A program made the translations under genes and the position numbers. A stretch of 64,000 nt of DNA from Ectothiorhodospiraceae bacterium 2226 (GTDB taxonomy: Bacteria > Pseudomonadota > Gammaproteobacteria > GCA-013348725). Of the stretch, positions 2 through 61,353 are shown piece by piece. Numbering within the stretch: position 1 is the first letter of the stretch; each line of letters begins with the position of its first letter. The stretch is from assembly GCA_013348725.1 (NCBI GenBank), contig CP054689.1:1414501-1478500 (forward strand), in the 5' to 3' direction. The notes below the pieces were generated by a model. It had not been told where the DNA came from. It did not search any database and was given only the letters and a program-made list of their open reading frames with translations.

Positions 2-3000
2 CGCCAGCACGTCGGGGACCAAGTGCTAGCCGATCTGCGCGGCTCGCGTGAGCCCCTCATCGTCGCCGGCTATGCCTCTCTGGACAAGCTCATCGACTTC
101 ATCGCCGACTGCCCCGAGGACACGCAGGTACGCCTCCTGCTCGGCTTCGAGCCGTTCCCGTCTCGGCGGGAGAGCTTTCACGTGCGCGGCTACAGCTTTC
201 CCAAAGAGGTGGAGACTTACTGGCTCGGCCGCAACATCTCCCTGCTGCTGAGCGCGAAGATTATTCAGTGCATTGACCGGCTGGAGCGCGGGCCGGTGCA
301 GGCGCGACACTTGTCCAGTGTCAGCCGCCGACTGCATGCGAAGATCTACGTGGGCGACCGGGCGGCCACTGTCGGCTCCAGCAATTTCACCTCGCCGGGC
401 CTGAACAACCAATGGGAAGCCAACGCCCGATTTGAGGCGGCCACAGAGCGCAAGCGCTACGGGGAGCTGAAGGGCATCGCGGAGAACTACTGGTCCATGG
501 GCGTGGACTATAGTGCCAACCTTATCGCCCTGCTACGTGAGCTGTTGCGCGAGGTGTCTTGGCAGGAGGCGCTTGCACGTGCCTGCGCGGAACTGCTGGA
601 GGGCGACTGGGCGGAGGGCTTCTTGAGGGATGACGTGCTCCCAGGGGAGACCAGCTTGTGGCCCTCCCAACGCCAGGGCATCGCTCAGGCGTTGTATGTG
701 TTGTCCCGCCAGGGCAGCGTGCTGGTGGCCGATGCCACCGGCTCAGGCAAAACGCTCATGGGCACACACTTGGTTCGCGCCATCGGCGAGCAGATCGTCC
801 ATTCGGGGCGGCTGCGCCGTGGTAAGGCGCTGATGGTCTGCCCGCCCGCCGTGGAGGAGAACTGGCGCCGGGATGCGACGTTTGCGGGTGCGCAGCTGGA
901 GACCTTCTCCCACGGCATGTTGAGCCACGCGGGCAGCGGGCGGCATGAACTAGTCATCGAGTCATTGCGGCGCGCGCAGATCCTGTGCGTGGACGAGGGC
1001 CACAACTTCCTCAACGTCAAGTCCAATCGCACTCAGAACCTGCTTCGCAACATGGCGGACCATGTGTTGCTGTTCACCGCCACGCCTATCAACCGCAGCG
1101 TGGTGGACCTGCTGCGGATTGTCGACATGCTGGGGGCGGACAACTTGCAGCCCTCCACACTCAAAGCCTTCCAGAAGATGCTGGGCGTGCGGGACATCAA
1201 CCGCTCGCTGGAAGAGGAGGAGATCGACCTGTTGCGCGCGGAGATCCAGAAGTTCACGGTGCGGCGCACCAAGCGTATGCTCAATGACCTGATCGACCGG
1301 GATCCGGAGGCCTATCGGGACAAGAACGGCAAACCCTGCCGTTTTCCCAAGCATCAGCCCCAGATCTACACGCTCGACGAGCCGGACGAGGATCGCGAGT
1401 TGGCGGCCGAGATTCGCGCCCACGCGGACCAGCTTTTCGCCGTGTCCCATTTCCGCCGCCCGGTGGAGATGCCCGATTTCCTCGCTCGCTTGGGACGCAG
1501 CGAGGAGAGCTACCTCCAGGGGCGCCTGCATTCGGCCAAGAAGATCGCGCGCTACCTCATCATGGCCACCCTGCGTTCCTCGCGGCTGGCCCTGGCCGAG
1601 CATATCGCGGGAACGGAGCAGGCCACCCGGGACTTCGACCTAGCGGGTTTCCAGAAGCACACGGAGACCGGCAACATGCTCGCCGGCCTGGAGGCGCTTG
1701 CCGGCAAACCGCCCAAGAACAAACTCAGCATCGCCCTTCCCGACTGGCTCTCCGATCCGGCGGCCCATGCCGAGGCCTGCGCGCACGACCGGGAGATCTA
1801 TGTACGCATCTATCAACTTCTGACCCGCATGACCGACGCCCGGGAACGCGGCAAGGCCTTGCGGCTCCTGGATCTGGCCACGCGCCATTCCCTGCTGCTG
1901 GCCTTCGACCGCAGCCCCATTACTCTGGCGGAGATCCGCCGGCACATCGCCCTGCTCGCGCCCGAGCAGAAGACCCTGACCGGCACCGGTGACAGTGGCT
2001 CGGAGCGTGCAAAGCTGATGAAGGCGTTTCAATGGGGTTCGGCGGAGCGCGCCATCATCGGCCTGTGTTCCGACAGCCTGGCCGAGGGCGTGAATCTGCA
2101 GCAGGCCTCCTGCATGGTGCATCTCGATATGCCGAGCGTGGTGCGCATTGCCGAACAGCGCGCCGGGCGCGTGGATCGCATGGACAGCCCTCACCAGACC
2201 GTCGAGGCTTGGTGGCCCCAGGATGCACCGGAGTTCGCGCTGACCTCGGATGAGCGTTTCGTGGAACGCTATGAAACCGTCGAAAGCCTGTTGGGCTCGA
2301 ACATGCCCCTGCCGACCGAGATGCTCAACGGCAAGGAGAAGCGGGTGAGCACCCAGGACATCATCAAGGAATATGAAGAACAGACCCGCCAAGCCGAGTG
2401 GGACGGCATCCGTGACGCCTTTGAGCCGGTGCGACGACTGGTGGAGGGCGACGACGCGTTGGTGCCTCCCGCCACGTACGAGGCGCTACGAACCGTCACT
2501 GCACGCGTGCTCGCACGCGTAAGCGTCGTGCGAACCACCAAACCCTGGGCGTTCTTCAGTCTCTCGGGAGGCAGCTTCCAGGCGCCGCATTGGATCTTGT
2601 TCACCAGCCCTACCGCACCGCCAATCGCGGAGCTTGGCCCCATATGCGACCGCCTGCGCGAGCGCCTGAACGGTGGGACCGAGCGGCTGCGCATGGACCA
2701 ACGGGCAGCTGATCTCCTCGCAGAGTTCGTCGCCCAACTGAGCCAGGCGGAGCGCGCACTGCTGCCGCGCAAGAAGCAGCGTGCTCTCGAAGAAATGGAG
2801 CGGGCGCTTTCTAAATACATCGATAAGGCGTCCGCGCGCCAGGACCAGGAGGCCGTCGATCACTACCACGCGCTGTTGGACTGCCTCCGCTCGCCTGACC
2901 CACATCGCCAGCCGGCATGGGACGAAGTTGCCGCCCGATGGCTAGATCTCATACGACCTATTTGGTACGAACGCTTGAAGCAACGCCGTAACAAGCCGCT

Positions 3001-3142
3001 ACTGCTCGCGGACATTCGTGCCTATGTCCTCGCGCAGGAGGAATCACTGGGTCCGCGGATCATCGCGCAGTTCCAGAGTTTTCCTGTGCTTCCGTCGCCG
3101 GACGAACGAGTGACGGCCTGCATCCTCGGCGTGAACGCTTAG
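2..3142 (+). CDS. PLD-nuclease/SNF2-type helicase, 5' end probably outside window
   Basis: A large superfamily 2 helicase fused to a phospholipase-D-type nuclease domain, probably acting on DNA in phage or plasmid defence. Counting from the GTG at 23, the nuclease motif H-x-K-x4-D is at H105, K107 and D112, followed by G-S-S-N at 118-121. The helicase has Walker A (G-S-G-K-T, about 240-244), a D-E-G-H box near 324, T-A-T-P near 352 and the C-terminal motif Q-R-A-G-R-V-D-R near 712. The frame is open to the left edge, and the GTG at 23 has no clear ribosome binding site, so the true start may lie upstream. An Mrr-type endonuclease gene follows after 18 bases. The architecture resembles helicases of restriction-like systems such as DISARM, but I cannot assign a named system. 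Confidence 0.88.
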   Translation, partial: RQHVGDQVLADLRGSREPLIVAGYASLDKLIDFIADCPEDTQVRLLLGFEPFPSRRESFHVRGYSFPKEVETYWLGRNISLLLSAKIIQCIDRLERGPVQARHLSSVSRRLHAKIYVGDRAATVGSSNFTSPGLNNQWEANARFEAATERKRYGELKGIAENYWSMGVDYSANLIALLRELLREVSWQEALARACAELLEGDWAEGFLRDDVLPGETSLWPSQRQGIAQALYVLSRQGSVLVADATGSGKTLMGTHLVRAIGEQIVHSGRLRRGKALMVCPPAVEENWRRDATFAGAQLETFSHGMLSHAGSGRHELVIESLRRAQILCVDEGHNFLNVKSNRTQNLLRNMADHVLLFTATPINRSVVDLLRIVDMLGADNLQPSTLKAFQKMLGVRDINRSLEEEEIDLLRAEIQKFTVRRTKRMLNDLIDRDPEAYRDKNGKPCRFPKHQPQIYTLDEPDEDRELAAEIRAHADQLFAVSHFRRPVEMPDFLARLGRSEESYLQGRLHSAKKIARYLIMATLRSSRLALAEHIAGTEQATRDFDLAGFQKHTETGNMLAGLEALAGKPPKNKLSIALPDWLSDPAAHAEACAHDREIYVRIYQLLTRMTDARERGKALRLLDLATRHSLLLAFDRSPITLAEIRRHIALLAPEQKTLTGTGDSGSERAKLMKAFQWGSAERAIIGLCSDSLAEGVNLQQASCMVHLDMPSVVRIAEQRAGRVDRMDSPHQTVEAWWPQDAPEFALTSDERFVERYETVESLLGSNMPLPTEMLNGKEKRVSTQDIIKEYEEQTRQAEWDGIRDAFEPVRRLVEGDDALVPPATYEALRTVTARVLARVSVVRTTKPWAFFSLSGGSFQAPHWILFTSPTAPPIAELGPICDRLRERLNGGTERLRMDQRAADLLAEFVAQLSQAERALLPRKKQRALEEMERALSKYIDKASARQDQEAVDHYHALLDCLRSPDPHRQPAWDEVAARWLDLIRPIWYERLKQRRNKPLLLADIRAYVLAQEESLGPRIIAQFQSFPVLPSPDERVTACILGVNA

Positions 3143-54008: not shown

Positions 54009-54413
54009 CTACGGTCGCGGCGCGTCCACTTCGACGGCGTAGGCGGAAATGCCGACAAGCCGCAGGCCGGCGCAGGTGCCAGAGACGTGGGTATCGGCAC
54101 CGCCCACGTTGAATCGCAACCTGCCTTCCTCGGCCTGCTCCACCGTCAATGCGGCCGCGGTGGACACGCCGAAGCCCCGTAACGCTAGGTCAGTGACGGC
54201 CAAGAAATCGAGGGTGACCTGCGCGGTATTCGCGCTCGGCGCCCACCGCCTGGGCGGACGGTCGGGAAACCGCGCCAAGTCAGCGCGAAGGCGCATGGTG
54301 GGGCCCTCGCGGTGCAGCGTGACTTCCAGTACGTCCATGCGCTCCAGGCCATGGCTAGAGGCATACAGCGTGGCCACCGCCTCTCGGTTCATCAGACAGT
54401 CGATCCAAATCAT
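54009..54413 (-). CDS. Imm50-like immunity protein (orphan)
   Basis: A 134-residue protein resembling immunity family Imm50: an N-terminal W-I-D-C-L, then V-L-E-V-T-L-H-R-E-G-P, L-R-A-D-L-A-R-F-P-D-R-P-P-R-R-W and V-T-L-D-F-L-A-V near the middle. Imm50 proteins neutralise polymorphic toxins secreted by other cells. No toxin gene is next to it here. The open frame extends upstream to 54728 in the same phase as the TusA-like gene, but ATG 54413, with AGGAG upstream, gives the family length. I cannot exclude a start at GTG 54632. Confidence 0.65.
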   Translation of the reverse strand: MIWIDCLMNREAVATLYASSHGLERMDVLEVTLHREGPTMRLRADLARFPDRPPRRWAPSANTAQVTLDFLAVTDLALRGFGVSTAAALTVEQAEEGRLRFNVGGADTHVSGTCAGLRLVGISAYAVEVDAPRP

Positions 54414-54728
54414 GCTCGCGCGGACTCCTGTGCCCAATGCTGACTGCGCCCTAGGCCCTTTCTGCCGGAACTGAGACAGGAGGTCAATGGCCCAGACGAC
54501 GGGGTTGCTTGCCATGCGCACGTCACGCGACCTGCGCAGCGCCGGCGCGTGGTGAGCCACCGAAAGGTCGCGGATGCGCATCGGAACGAGCGCCACGTGC
54601 ACGAAGTCTTCGATGCCGTTGCTGAAACGCACGAGAGCGATGGCGCCGCCAAGGAGTGCCCGCCCGAGATCCTGACGTACTTGTAGTTCGAGGTGGTTCC
54701 CCTCAAGCCCTGGTGCTTCGCGGCCGAC
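54414..54728 (-). other. Open frame continuing from the TusA-like stop into the immunity gene
   Basis: A 315-base stretch without a stop in the phase shared by the TusA-like gene and the Imm50-like gene. Translated, it has segments such as L-E-L-Q-V-R-Q-D-L-G-R-A-L-L-G-G and V-V-W-A-I-D-L-L that look protein-like, but no family is recognised. It might be a decayed gene or a genuine N-terminal extension of the immunity protein. Confidence 0.4.
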
Positions 54729-56301: not shown

Positions 56302-56964
56302 CTAGGACTGAAGCTCGATGTTCCAGCCCGTCAGGCTGCACGCCAGGCGCACGTGCTGGCTCCGCTGCGCGTGCGACATGGGGCGCTGCAGCAGGGCAAG
56401 CTTCACGCGCAGCGCGTGCGCTTCGTGATCTACCGAAACGGTGCGCACGCGCAGCGGCAGGAGCGCCTCGCGCGCGAAGGCCTCGATGTCCTCGCTGAAG
56501 CGCACGAGGTCGACGGTCTCACCATGGAGTTGCTCGGTCACGCGCCGCACCTGCGCGCCGCCGACGCCCGCGCAGGTTTCAATGGGGTCCAGTCCCGGCA
56601 CCAGCGCCCGCAGCGCCAGCTTGGCGCGGCTGCCCGCCTCGCGCGCGACCGCCTGGATGGCGACTGCGCCCTCGCGGATCTCGGGCACCGCGTTCTCGAA
56701 CACCCGCACCAGGAACATCGGCGCCGCGCGCGACAGACGCGCCGTCACGCCCGCCGGCGTCACGACGGCTTCGACCAGGTAGGCATCGATGCGCTCGCCC
56801 GGCTGGAAGCGCTCACCCGGGATCGCCTCCGCCTCGGGCAACACCCCCGTCACCTCCCCCAGATCGACGTGCAGCGCACCCTGCACCTGCTCGCGGACGA
56901 TGCCCGCCACGAGCGCGCCTTCGAGGTTCTTGAACTTTTCGAAGACTTGACTCTTGGCGTGCAT
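56302..56964 (-). CDS. Free-standing NusA-like S1-KH protein
   Basis: A 220-residue protein matching the centre of transcription factor NusA without its N-terminal RNA-polymerase-binding domain or C-terminal acidic repeats. Residues 14-79 are an S1-like barrel. The segment A-P-M-F-L-V-R-V-F-E-N-A-V-P-E-I-R-E-G (81-99) and A-R-E-A-G-S-R-A-K-L follow NusA closely. KH1 has G-V-G-G at 133-136. KH2 ends in S-L-T-G-W-N-I-E but has lost its G-x-x-G. It probably binds RNA; a role in antitermination or regulation is inferred. The neighbours (MscS channel, methyltransferase) give no clue. Confidence 0.8.
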   Translation of the reverse strand: MHAKSQVFEKFKNLEGALVAGIVREQVQGALHVDLGEVTGVLPEAEAIPGERFQPGERIDAYLVEAVVTPAGVTARLSRAAPMFLVRVFENAVPEIREGAVAIQAVAREAGSRAKLALRALVPGLDPIETCAGVGGAQVRRVTEQLHGETVDLVRFSEDIEAFAREALLPLRVRTVSVDHEAHALRVKLALLQRPMSHAQRSQHVRLACSLTGWNIELQS

Positions 56965-57009
56965 GTCGAACCTCTTCTACGGCGCTGCGGCTGCGCACGC
57001 GCGCGACGC

Positions 57010-58284
57010 TCAGAAACCCACCGGCAGGCGCGGCGCGTCCGCCGGCGCACCAAGCTGCTGGAGTGCCAGTCGCACGTCGGGGCCGCTCGGCTGCTGAAAC
57101 ACCTGCAGGCCGAACTCGGGCAGGATGGCGAGCAGGTGGTCGAAGATGTCCGACTGGATGCCTTCGTAGACCGCCCAGGCGGTGGAGCGGGTGAAGCAGT
57201 AGACCTCCAGTGGCAGCCCTTGCGGCCCGGGGTTCAGCTGGCGCACGATCAGGGTCATCCCTTGATGGACGTCGGGATGCTTGCGCAGATAGCGCTCGGT
57301 GTAGGCGCGGAAGGTGCCGATGTTGGTGACCTGGCGGCGATTGATCGGGTCGAGCCCCTGCGCCATCAGGGTGTCGTTCCATGCGCGCAACTCCAGCTCC
57401 TTTGCATCCAGATAGTCCGCCAGCACCGCAAAGCGGCGCAGGTTGTCCTGTTCGGACTCGGACAGAAATCGGACGCTGTTCTGATCGATGTACAGCGCGC
57501 GCTTGATCCGTCGTCCGCCGCTCTCCTGCATGCCGCGCCAGTTCTTGAACGAATCGGAGATCAAGCGCTTGGTAGGAATGGTGGTGATGGTGCGGTCCCA
57601 GTTCTGGACCTTGACCGTATGCAGAGCGATGTCGATAACGTCGCCGTCCGCGTTGAGCTGCGGCATTTCGATCCAGTCGCCCACGCGCACCATATCGTTC
57701 GAGGAGAGCTGCACACTCGCAACCAGCGATAGCAGTGTGTCCTGAAACACCAACATCAACACCGCCGCCATGGCGCCCAAGCCGGAGAGCAGAATCAGCG
57801 GCGAACGGTCGAGTAGCGAGGCGATGATCAGAATCGCCGCGACGGCGTACACGACGATCTGGACCACCTGCAGGTAGCCCTTGATCGGCCGATGTTTGGC
57901 GTCGGGTCGACGGCAGTAGATCGCGTTGACGCTGTGCAACAAGGCGCCGATCGCCAGCGCGAGGGTCAAAACGATGTAGGCGTTGCTGACGTTGCGCACC
58001 ACCACCACGGCCGCGTCCGCCAAGCCGGGCACCGCGCCGATACCCGCCCACAGCACCAGGGCGGGCACGACGTGCGCCAGGCGGACCAGTACCGTGCCCA
58101 GCCCGAGATCCGCATCCTGCCCCAGAGTGGTCGCCTGCAACATGCGGCGCGCCGCCCGCATCAGCACGTGCTTGGTGATGAAGTTCGCGAACCACACCGC
58201 CAGCAAGAGCAGGCTGATGGCGATGAGCGTGTAGACCCAGGGCTGACCGTCGGCCCACGTAATGAACCATTCGGGGTAAGACAT
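57010..58284 (-). CDS. Mechanosensitive channel, MscS family (YbdG-like)
   Basis: A 424-residue inner-membrane channel. Five membrane helices occupy the first 180 residues. The pore-lining helix region L-L-S-G-L-G-A-M-A-A-V-L-M-L-V-F-Q is followed by the beta domain with V-G-D-W-I-E-M and V-Q-N-W-D-R-T-I-T-T-I-P-T. The insert after the beta domain (about 245-360) and overall length resemble E. coli YbdG rather than MscS. It releases solutes on osmotic downshock. The NusA-like gene follows on the same strand with a 45-base gap. Confidence 0.91.
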   Translation of the reverse strand: MSYPEWFITWADGQPWVYTLIAISLLLLAVWFANFITKHVLMRAARRMLQATTLGQDADLGLGTVLVRLAHVVPALVLWAGIGAVPGLADAAVVVVRNVSNAYIVLTLALAIGALLHSVNAIYCRRPDAKHRPIKGYLQVVQIVVYAVAAILIIASLLDRSPLILLSGLGAMAAVLMLVFQDTLLSLVASVQLSSNDMVRVGDWIEMPQLNADGDVIDIALHTVKVQNWDRTITTIPTKRLISDSFKNWRGMQESGGRRIKRALYIDQNSVRFLSESEQDNLRRFAVLADYLDAKELELRAWNDTLMAQGLDPINRRQVTNIGTFRAYTERYLRKHPDVHQGMTLIVRQLNPGPQGLPLEVYCFTRSTAWAVYEGIQSDIFDHLLAILPEFGLQVFQQPSGPDVRLALQQLGAPADAPRLPVGF

Positions 58285-58528: not shown

Positions 58529-59473
58529 TCACTCAGCGCCGCTGCGTTCCGCCACCTCCCCGGCGTCGGAGTGGGCTCGGGTACGGCGGGATGCCGAAGC
58601 TTGGCGCTTACGTTGCACGAGGTACGCGTGCAACATCTCGCTTGCCAATCCATGAAGTACTAGCCGATAACCCGCACGAAGCGTGCTCATGGCGACCATT
58701 GGGTGCTTATTGTTGACCAGCAGCATTGGCAATGGATCGTCCAAAAGCTGGCTCGTATAGATAGCGACGGTCTCATCCAGCTGGAGTGAGTTCGAGGCGC
58801 GCCAAAAGTCGCTGTCGGTCAGGAACAACTGGAAGATCGGTGTGAAGACTTCAATGGCCGTCAGCAGGTCTATTTTATTAGTCCAACCGTCGGGCATCGG
58901 TTCAATGGGCAATGGACCGTCCGTTATCATGCTGAAATCCAGGGGGGAAGAAGGAGGTTTTATCGTCCTTTCCTGCCGAGCGAGCTCGCGGTTCACCCAG
59001 ATAACGAAGTTGAATAGATTCAAGTCGTGTTTCACGAAGCCGTCCGGCTTCAGATCCTCCAGATTTCGAAATCGCATGAAGTGCAGCTCCGGTATCTGGA
59101 TGTCAGGAAGGTTCTTGAGGATGAACTGCTGGATCTCCGAGCCCACATGAAAGTGGCGCATCACCAGCCAGTTCGCATCCGGACTCACGAAATGGCGCAT
59201 TCCACCGACCAACACACGATGCAAAAGGCTCACTGCGCGTAGACGTTTTGGGAGGATGAGCTTGAGCAACTGCACGGCGACCAGGCCGAGCCGCGCCATG
59301 GGCCTGACGATGGGGAGGAGATACTGCCGGCTTGGACTACTGGCATCCCTTAGCCACCGTCGTTTCACTTCAGCATCTAACGGGATGCTTTGATCGAGTA
59401 GCAGTGCGTGCCACGGGCTTGGATCTGCCGGATCGTGTTCCCGATTTGGGTCCTCTAACCACGGCTGGCTCAT
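58529..59473 (-). CDS. Unrecognised protein coupled to the ketosynthase fusion
   Basis: A 314-residue protein with no family I can name with certainty. One membrane-associated stretch lies at about 58-80 (P-M-A-R-L-G-L-V-A-V-Q-L-L-K-L-I-L-P). The rest looks globular, with conserved-looking H-F-H-V-G-S-E-I-Q and K-H-D-L-N-L-F-N-F-V-I. The ATG overlaps the upstream KAS/di-iron gene stop by four bases (ATGA), so the two are made together. By context it may help the same lipid pathway, perhaps as a membrane-associated partner or acyl carrier handling protein (inference). Confidence 0.7.
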   Translation of the reverse strand: MSQPWLEDPNREHDPADPSPWHALLLDQSIPLDAEVKRRWLRDASSPSRQYLLPIVRPMARLGLVAVQLLKLILPKRLRAVSLLHRVLVGGMRHFVSPDANWLVMRHFHVGSEIQQFILKNLPDIQIPELHFMRFRNLEDLKPDGFVKHDLNLFNFVIWVNRELARQERTIKPPSSPLDFSMITDGPLPIEPMPDGWTNKIDLLTAIEVFTPIFQLFLTDSDFWRASNSLQLDETVAIYTSQLLDDPLPMLLVNNKHPMVAMSTLRAGYRLVLHGLASEMLHAYLVQRKRQASASRRTRAHSDAGEVAERSGAE

Positions 59474-61353
59474 AGTAACTCCCATTGCAGCGTGTATAGT
59501 GCTGCGACATGCTTAGCGGTTGTCATGATGCTATGTGCATGCTCACGCGCGTTTTCGTTCGGCGTCGCCAGCACCAGCTCGACTGCATTCAGCCAGCGAG
59601 CCAGGTGACTAGGGTCGTTCTCCCCGTGATACCTCAAAAACCGATAACACTCCTCCGGAAGCGCGAGCTGCTGACGGATGCTCGGCAAGAGAGCGGGGAT
59701 GATGCGTTGGCCGGTGCCCTCGATGATGTAGACGCCGCCTAGGAGCCCGACCGGCAGGGGCTCGCGTGCTAGGCCGTGCATATAGGCGTTCAGCGCTTCG
59801 CCACCTGCGTTTCGGCGCAGATCGTTCACGGATGCTATTGTTCCCCCCGCTCGGCGATAATCCTGAAATAGCATCATGAAGTCACCATGCTCGTCATCGG
59901 CATGCTGGTGGATGAGATCCCGTAGGTCGGCATACGCGTCCGGCAGATCGGCGACCGCTTGCCGCATCCACCGCGTACCTTCCTGCACCTGTGGAATCCA
60001 GGTCTCCATCCAGCGGAGGTAATCCTGGCGAGTCAACTTCCCGCCCAGGATCTTGGCCACGAAAGGGGTATGCCAAATCCCTGAACGATACTCATGCCAG
60101 ATCGACGCTAACCCTTGGAGCGTATCCTTGATCAAACCCTTTGTTGAACCGCCGGGGTCGTGCGGCGGCGCGACCGGCGCGTGCGCACTGCCGCCCCGCT
60201 TGGGGCTGCCCTTGCCGCTACCCGGGACCACAGTGAGCATAACAAACGACACGGAGAAGCGACCGGATTCGGGGACAAAACATAGCACCCGCTCTCCAGG
60301 CAGCAGGCTCCTCTCGCGCATGAGGTCGGCGAGCTGGATGAATATCGCAGAAGAGCCCGTATTCCCGCGGCGGGTGAGATTAGAGAACCAGCGCTCGCGC
60401 TGTATATGCAAACCTGCAGTACGCATCAACTCGTCGCAGACCTTGCCTAGCTTTTCCGAGGAATAGTGTGCCAAGAAATGCGTGACTTTCTCCGGAATCA
60501 CGTGCCCGGCGCGCACCAACTCGGCATACTCGTGCACCGCGACCTCGAACAACTGGGGAAGGATCCGCAGATCCTGGCGCAGGAGCAGTGCTCCTGCTCG
60601 CTCCGCTGATGCAAAGGACTCATAGTCCATGAACGAGCGCTTGGATGCTTCGGTCGCGGTCCCCAGCTGCATACACGGGGGATAATCTCCCGAGAATGAC
60701 TTCGTGTGTATCCAGTCGACACGTAACGCGGTACCAGACGCCGCCTCGGAGTGCGAAGATAGAACGCACGCTCCGGCGCCGTCGGATAACATCCAGCGGA
60801 GAAATTCTGCGTCGAAGGTAGGCCGACCAATCAGCGATGTGTAACGAGACTTGCGAAGCAGACGGGAGGGAAACTCCACCGCGGCGACAACCGCACGGGT
60901 ATGATTCCCCGTCCCGACGTGGTTCGCGGCATCCGTAAGCGCTCCGATGCCGGCGCCGCAGATGCCATGGTGGCTACGGGTCGACATTGGCGGACCACGA
61001 AGCTCCCCTTGCAACATGTTGGCGAACCCCGGCATCAGCACATCTCCACCGGAGGTGGCTGCCGCAAGGAACGTGATATCCGATAGTTTTACGCCCGCAT
61101 GGGCCAGACCCGACTCAACGGCGAGCGCCCCCATCTGGGCGGCCGTGTAGCGAGCCTCTCCCTCCGGATCGATTCCGTAATGGCGCGTGGTGATGCCGTT
61201 GTCGGCGAGCACCCGCCGCTTGAGGCGCACTGATCCTGGGTCCAGCGGCGAGATGTAACGGTCCATCGCCTCGTTATCGACGGGTTCGCCCGGGAGGAAG
61301 CTGCCAGTTCCAACGATGTAAACGCCGTCGTAGTGCTGCGGACCGTAGCGCAT
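59470..61353 (-). CDS. Ketoacyl-ACP synthase III fused to a haem-oxygenase-like di-iron domain
   Basis: A 627-residue bifunctional protein. Residues 1-378 are a FabH-type thiolase fold with the full catalytic set: Cys132 (H-G-I-C-G-A), His296 (F-L-A-H-Y) and Asn331 (G-N-T-G-S-S). It should condense an acyl donor with an extender or a second acyl group. A Gly/Pro/Ser linker (378-404) leads to a helical TenA/haem-oxygenase-like domain (about 405-627). Candidate metal ligands are H484, E488, H489, E545 and the H576-x3-D580-x2-H583 cluster, as in iron-containing redox enzymes such as UndA. The product may be an unusual lipid, ketone or hydrocarbon (inference). Confidence 0.88.
   Translation of the reverse strand: MRYGPQHYDGVYIVGTGSFLPGEPVDNEAMDRYISPLDPGSVRLKRRVLADNGITTRHYGIDPEGEARYTAAQMGALAVESGLAHAGVKLSDITFLAAATSGGDVLMPGFANMLQGELRGPPMSTRSHHGICGAGIGALTDAANHVGTGNHTRAVVAAVEFPSRLLRKSRYTSLIGRPTFDAEFLRWMLSDGAGACVLSSHSEAASGTALRVDWIHTKSFSGDYPPCMQLGTATEASKRSFMDYESFASAERAGALLLRQDLRILPQLFEVAVHEYAELVRAGHVIPEKVTHFLAHYSSEKLGKVCDELMRTAGLHIQRERWFSNLTRRGNTGSSAIFIQLADLMRERSLLPGERVLCFVPESGRFSVSFVMLTVVPGSGKGSPKRGGSAHAPVAPPHDPGGSTKGLIKDTLQGLASIWHEYRSGIWHTPFVAKILGGKLTRQDYLRWMETWIPQVQEGTRWMRQAVADLPDAYADLRDLIHQHADDEHGDFMMLFQDYRRAGGTIASVNDLRRNAGGEALNAYMHGLAREPLPVGLLGGVYIIEGTGQRIIPALLPSIRQQLALPEECYRFLRYHGENDPSHLARWLNAVELVLATPNENAREHAHSIMTTAKHVAALYTLQWELL

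Follow-up and report, generated by a model that had tools for sequence, protein, structure and literature searches.

What role, if any, does a gene for the S1-KH1-KH2 centre of NusA alone play in a bacterium that also encodes a complete NusA? The locus that raises this question lies in a 64,000-nt stretch of the genome of Ectothiorhodospiraceae bacterium 2226 (hereafter, the window), where a 220-aa ORF occupies positions 56302–56964 of the minus strand, with its ATG at 56964 and its stop at 56302; both the coordinates and the strand were verified. The GC content by codon position (0.78/0.44/0.89) is coding-like, and a Shine-Dalgarno-like AGAGG (56971–56975, minus strand) is found 6 nt 5′ of the ATG, within GAAGAGGTTCGAC. 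The genome is complete (a single 2.96-Mb contig, completeness of 100), and elsewhere it encodes a normal NusA of 512 aa, flanked by rimP and infB. Because a full NusA is also present, the 220-aa protein is a paralogue, which excludes the case in which it would be what is left of a sole nusA. The two proteins are 35% identical, with one gap in 218 aligned residues (BLASTP E-value of 4e-43), and the gene for the paralogue sits downstream of an mscS-like gene rather than between rimP and infB. The initial annotation, which proposed a short paralogue of NusA encoded away from the nusA operon, is thus borne out on this point.

The homology of the paralogue to NusA is far beyond chance. The NCBIfam model for bacterial NusA (TIGR01953) matches it with an E-value of 9.2e-56, and a search of PDB sequences returns NusA entries (best E-value of 2e-39). 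The TIGR01953 score of 189 bits falls below the equivalog cutoff of 253 because the match covers only model positions 119–336 of 340. This truncation follows domain boundaries: the protein begins where the S1 region of NusA begins and ends immediately after KH2, and when the genome's own NusA is searched against the window with tblastn, only its residues 141–358 align at this locus. The N-terminal RNA polymerase-binding domain (NTD) and the acidic repeats are accordingly absent, as had been noted from the sequence. Of the three domains, S1 (residues ~14–80; 56725–56925, minus strand) is the weakest by profile, with a Pfam S1 score of 17.9 bits against a curated cutoff of 22, while KH1 (residues ~99–178; 56431–56670, minus strand) matches Pfam KH_5 above cutoff (9.6e-15) and is delimited by column comparison with 45 NusA-core sequences; the profile check proposed earlier therefore succeeds for the KH model and falls short for S1. 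KH2 (residues ~179–220; 56305–56430, minus strand) was assigned by the same column comparison. The paralogue is not of the archaeal type, as it contains an S1 domain and scores 24 bits with TIGR01952, for which the cutoff is 74.

The predicted structure agrees with this assignment. An AlphaFold2 model, built from a 14-row alignment of the window protein and NusA cores from fetched loci, shows an S1-KH1-KH2 arrangement (pLDDT of 94, pTM of 0.87), with the S1 strands lying between residues 18 and 78, and the first 17 Foldseek matches are all NusA (TMq of 0.80–0.91). Together with the TIGR01953 match, the NusA fold of the model upholds the earlier reading of an end-to-end alignment with the centre of NusA, and the fold is RNA-binding in kind. 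Within KH2, a predicted helix (residues 198–212) passes through the former loop, and the block of residues 191–200 has a pLDDT of 82.

To what extent has the paralogue kept the residues by which NusA is recognized? Of 53 columns with conservation of 95% or more across the 45 NusA-core sequences, it retains 32. VRLA and the terminal SLTGW are kept. In the KH1 loop, GMRGSR of NusA is replaced by GVGGAQ, such that the GxxG motif is kept and both conserved arginines are gone (R135G and R138Q); this arginine loss is new beyond the initial annotation. In KH2, the annotated loss of GxxG alongside a retained SLTGW ending holds, with HAQRSQH in place of IGRxGQN, and only one of the two KH domains thus carries GxxG. 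Loops of this type in KH domains and NusA contact RNA, and the notable losses in the paralogue fall in the presumed RNA-contact loops of both KH domains. As the best-conserved RNA-contact residues of the loops are altered in both, canonical di-KH binding of RNA by the paralogue appears doubtful. NusA cores average a net charge of −6 and the genome's own NusA has −11, whereas the core of the paralogue carries −2, a value compatible with RNA.

In the tree, the paralogue has a very long branch (3.3–4.6 changes per site) and is not placed; sisterhood with the genome's own NusA (p = 0.55) and a position among NusAs of the class (p = 0.65) both survive the AU test. With the paralogue protein as query, 359 of 369 genomes of the class have matches, and only the window genome, G064 and G329 have two. 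The KH_5 profile finds matches in 361 of 370 class genomes, two of them only in the window genome, G329 and G787. The second matches in G064 and G787 are genes split by the ends of contigs rather than extra copies, while G329 carries two complete rimP-nusA-infB loci (L037 and L039), encoding NusAs that are 72% and 64% identical to that of the window genome, and is probably a mixed assembly. In a phylum sample of 397 genomes, two matches occur only in the window genome and in G461 (best E-value of 5e-23), where the gene is probably split as well. The order of G118, a genome with one of the NusAs nearest in the tree to that of the window genome, shows one match apiece in 20 of 20 genomes. The premise that bacteria normally have a single full NusA agrees with the one NusA each in ~360 class genomes. 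No other free-standing NusA core was found in these ~360 and in ~250 other-class genomes of the phylum, a sample in which the window genome is the sole representative of its family and order, and a scan of genome contigs returned only an ordinary Rhodospirillaceae NusA.

Searches of plasmids, phages and IMG/VR likewise yielded nothing that resembles the paralogue, but either no match or ordinary NusA with identities no higher than 41%. Every plasmid or phage match looks like ordinary NusA, including a Niveibacterium "plasmid" match that is an ordinary nusA locus with rimP, and we thus reject a phage or plasmid gene as the identity of the paralogue. Separately, several members of a set of viral contigs (L064–L078 from IMG/VR, 24–289 kb, and L051, the 636-kb phage record LR756504) encode NusAs of ~410–423 aa. 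These form their own clade in the tree, some adjoin phage-like genes (endolysin, DHFR), and a PHROG scan of three of them gave no match. The paralogue itself looks like a private, very divergent offshoot of a universal gene, and it is an orphan for which we found no conserved neighbourhood or target evidence.

The protein is a genuine NusA paralogue reduced to the S1-KH1-KH2 core, and it is probably functional. Our main reading, to which we assign a probability of roughly 0.4, is that it serves as a specialised auxiliary module, unanchored to the polymerase, that enters, or competes for, the sites of the NusA core on restricted transcripts. According to Ha et al. (2010), as cited in PMC8770471, pausing in E. 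coli requires the NTD, which also suffices for it. The S1-KH1-KH2 part binds RNA and is held in check by autoinhibition from the acidic repeat (AR) domains (PMC6614801; PMC12297416). Lacking the NTD, the paralogue alone would not grip the RNA polymerase flap or enhance pausing, and lacking the acidic repeats, it would neither be autoinhibited by them nor dock on the α-CTD. With both missing, it would join in, or compete, where the NusA core normally sits, candidates being nascent RNA close to the exit channel and Nus-factor or ribosomal partners such as S10 or IF2. Such an unanchored, repeat-less core would be permanently open and mobile, and its action would be confined to a restricted set of transcripts. 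An S1-KH1-KH2 fragment of Mycobacterium tuberculosis NusA binds boxC-like RNA (PMC6614801); any RNA contact by the paralogue would be made mainly through S1 and the groove of KH1 rather than the KH2 loop, in a mode unlike that of a canonical di-KH protein. As the initial annotation suggested, the paralogue may be a regulator or antiterminator that binds RNA and has targets of its own; a role as protein partner or competitor is nearly as likely. What the analysis shows is the homology, the predicted fold, the lost domains, the presence of a full NusA as well, the altered loops and the constraint seen against a decayed copy described below; that the paralogue is expressed, binds RNA or partners, competes or modulates, or has any tie to the mscS-like gene, we infer.

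In a less probable reading, the paralogue is mainly a protein-binding decoy that has kept partner surfaces (e.g., for AR2 of full NusA, S10/NusE or IF2) and has lost RNA contact. It would then tune NusA either by drawing off its partners or by lifting its autoinhibition in trans. This would fit the alteration of the RNA-contact loops in both KH domains while the fold is preserved along with many structural columns. It would also fit what is reported of NusA, whose KH domains make contact with ribosome and IF2 partners as well (PMC8116511; PMC12297416): in E. coli, AR2 binds KH1 and IF2 has been modelled on KH2/AR1 (PMC12297416), and NusG-coupled expressomes gain stability from one KH domain (PMC8116511). 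The net charge argues in the other direction, as the paralogue is less acidic than NusA cores, not more.

The window contains a second, decayed copy, a feature that the first reading of the sequence missed. A 140-nt direct repeat at 54518–54657 (minus strand), with 73% DNA identity and a spacing of 1873 bp, duplicates the KH1 region of the paralogue, and weaker KH2 similarity runs on to ~54470 with an internal deletion; it overlaps a third NusA-like match in the genome, at 54531–54665. The frame of the decayed copy scores 116 against the paralogue and 46 against the genome's own NusA, whereas the maximum of 1000 shuffles against the paralogue is 53, and the copy therefore derives from the paralogue, not directly from nusA. 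The decayed copy carries indels, and identity between the two copies by codon position is flat (33, 30 and 33 of 44). Exactly one of the copies holds the NusA consensus at 16 sites, and at 14 of these that copy is the intact one (binomial p = 0.004), a comparison that rests on 69 aligned positions. This asymmetry implies selection on the intact copy and is the best evidence here that the paralogue works. The paralogue was thus duplicated locally, with decay of one copy and stronger constraint on the other. Directly downstream of the decayed copy is an immunity-like gene with an Imm50 domain (54009–54410, minus strand), for which the mechanical ORF start at 54632 is wrong, as it takes in the NusA-core remnant.

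The dead sister copy 1.9 kb away also lends itself to another, rather unlikely reading, in which the paralogue is itself a relic in decay, left by duplication of part of nusA and now drifting with hardly any function or none at all. Very fast evolution, the loss of hallmark residues and the orphan distribution are all expected of such a relic, as is the flat codon-position identity, which indicates mostly unconstrained divergence between the copies. An intact ORF that aligns over 218 residues with a single gap, although only 35% identical, is not, nor are the 14-versus-2 asymmetry in NusA-consensus residues kept, the confident predicted fold, and the coding-like GC pattern with a ribosome-binding site.

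The mscS-like mechanosensitive channel gene (57010–58284, minus strand; Pfam MS_channel_2nd, 3.9e-15) ends 45 bp upstream of the paralogue, and we found no σ70-like promoter and no intrinsic-terminator-like site between them, which suggests that the two are probably in one transcript. A stress-linked regulator tied to this gene, either an RNA-binding (auto)regulator of its transcript or a modulator of transcription in osmotic shock, would suit the short same-strand gap lacking a recognisable terminator or promoter, but is improbable given that, elsewhere in the class, no NusA-like gene adjoins the MscS homologues examined and that the adjacency may be accidental. A conserved pairing of the two genes was thus not found in other genomes of the class. 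Farther along, an ORF at 59470–61353 (minus strand) fuses a StlD/DarB-like ketosynthase (residues ~11–376) to a haem-oxygenase-like iron-containing redox enzyme domain (448–613) and is followed by a DUF6999 gene, possibly as a small biosynthetic cluster. At the other end of the window, a long helicase-like ORF (2–3142, plus strand), truncated by the window start, has a phospholipase-D-like N-terminal part and by eye a defence-type look.

In favour of the auxiliary module, we count the near-gapless alignment, the conserved columns, the predicted fold (pLDDT of 94, TMq of ~0.9), the full NusA retained elsewhere in the genome, the 14/16 constraint and the charge. Against it, we count the loss of the KH1 arginines and the KH2 GxxG, the very long branch, the lack of an orthologue in ~600 genomes and the lack of a recognisable σ70-like promoter. 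A stand-alone core beside full NusA would allow a direct test of what the RNA-binding centre can do without a polymerase anchor, within the limits on generality set by a paralogue known from one genome.

Compared with bacterial NusA (TIGR01953), the paralogue has the same S1-KH1-KH2 order and fold throughout, ~31–41% identity, the SLTGW ending and the KH1 GxxG. It differs in lacking the NTD and acidic repeats, in lying outside rimP-nusA-infB, in coexisting with a full NusA, and in the absence of the KH1 loop arginines and the KH2 GxxG. The nearest known free-standing NusA module is that of archaea (TIGR01952; PDB 2cxc and 9fjl, the latter named NusA2), which have one or several free-standing NusA-type KH genes (PMC7289017) and likewise lack the NTD; however, the archaeal forms consist of KH1-KH2 only, whereas the paralogue has S1 and is bacterial in sequence. 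Nearest in logic are the well-known specialised paralogues of NusG (RfaH, ActX and others), which act on few genes and in which a divergent paralogue of a universal elongation factor stands beside the housekeeping gene (PMC6391919). We found no report of a bacterial NusA equivalent in the literature searched, which included few subscription papers and is weak evidence of absence. RfaH belongs to a different protein family and binds RNA polymerase itself, whereas the paralogue lacks the RNA polymerase-binding domain of NusA. It is conceivable, if on balance unlikely, that the paralogue is the NusA counterpart of RfaH, a trans-acting, unanchored S1-KH1-KH2 core that would control a few transcripts or antagonise the housekeeping NusA.
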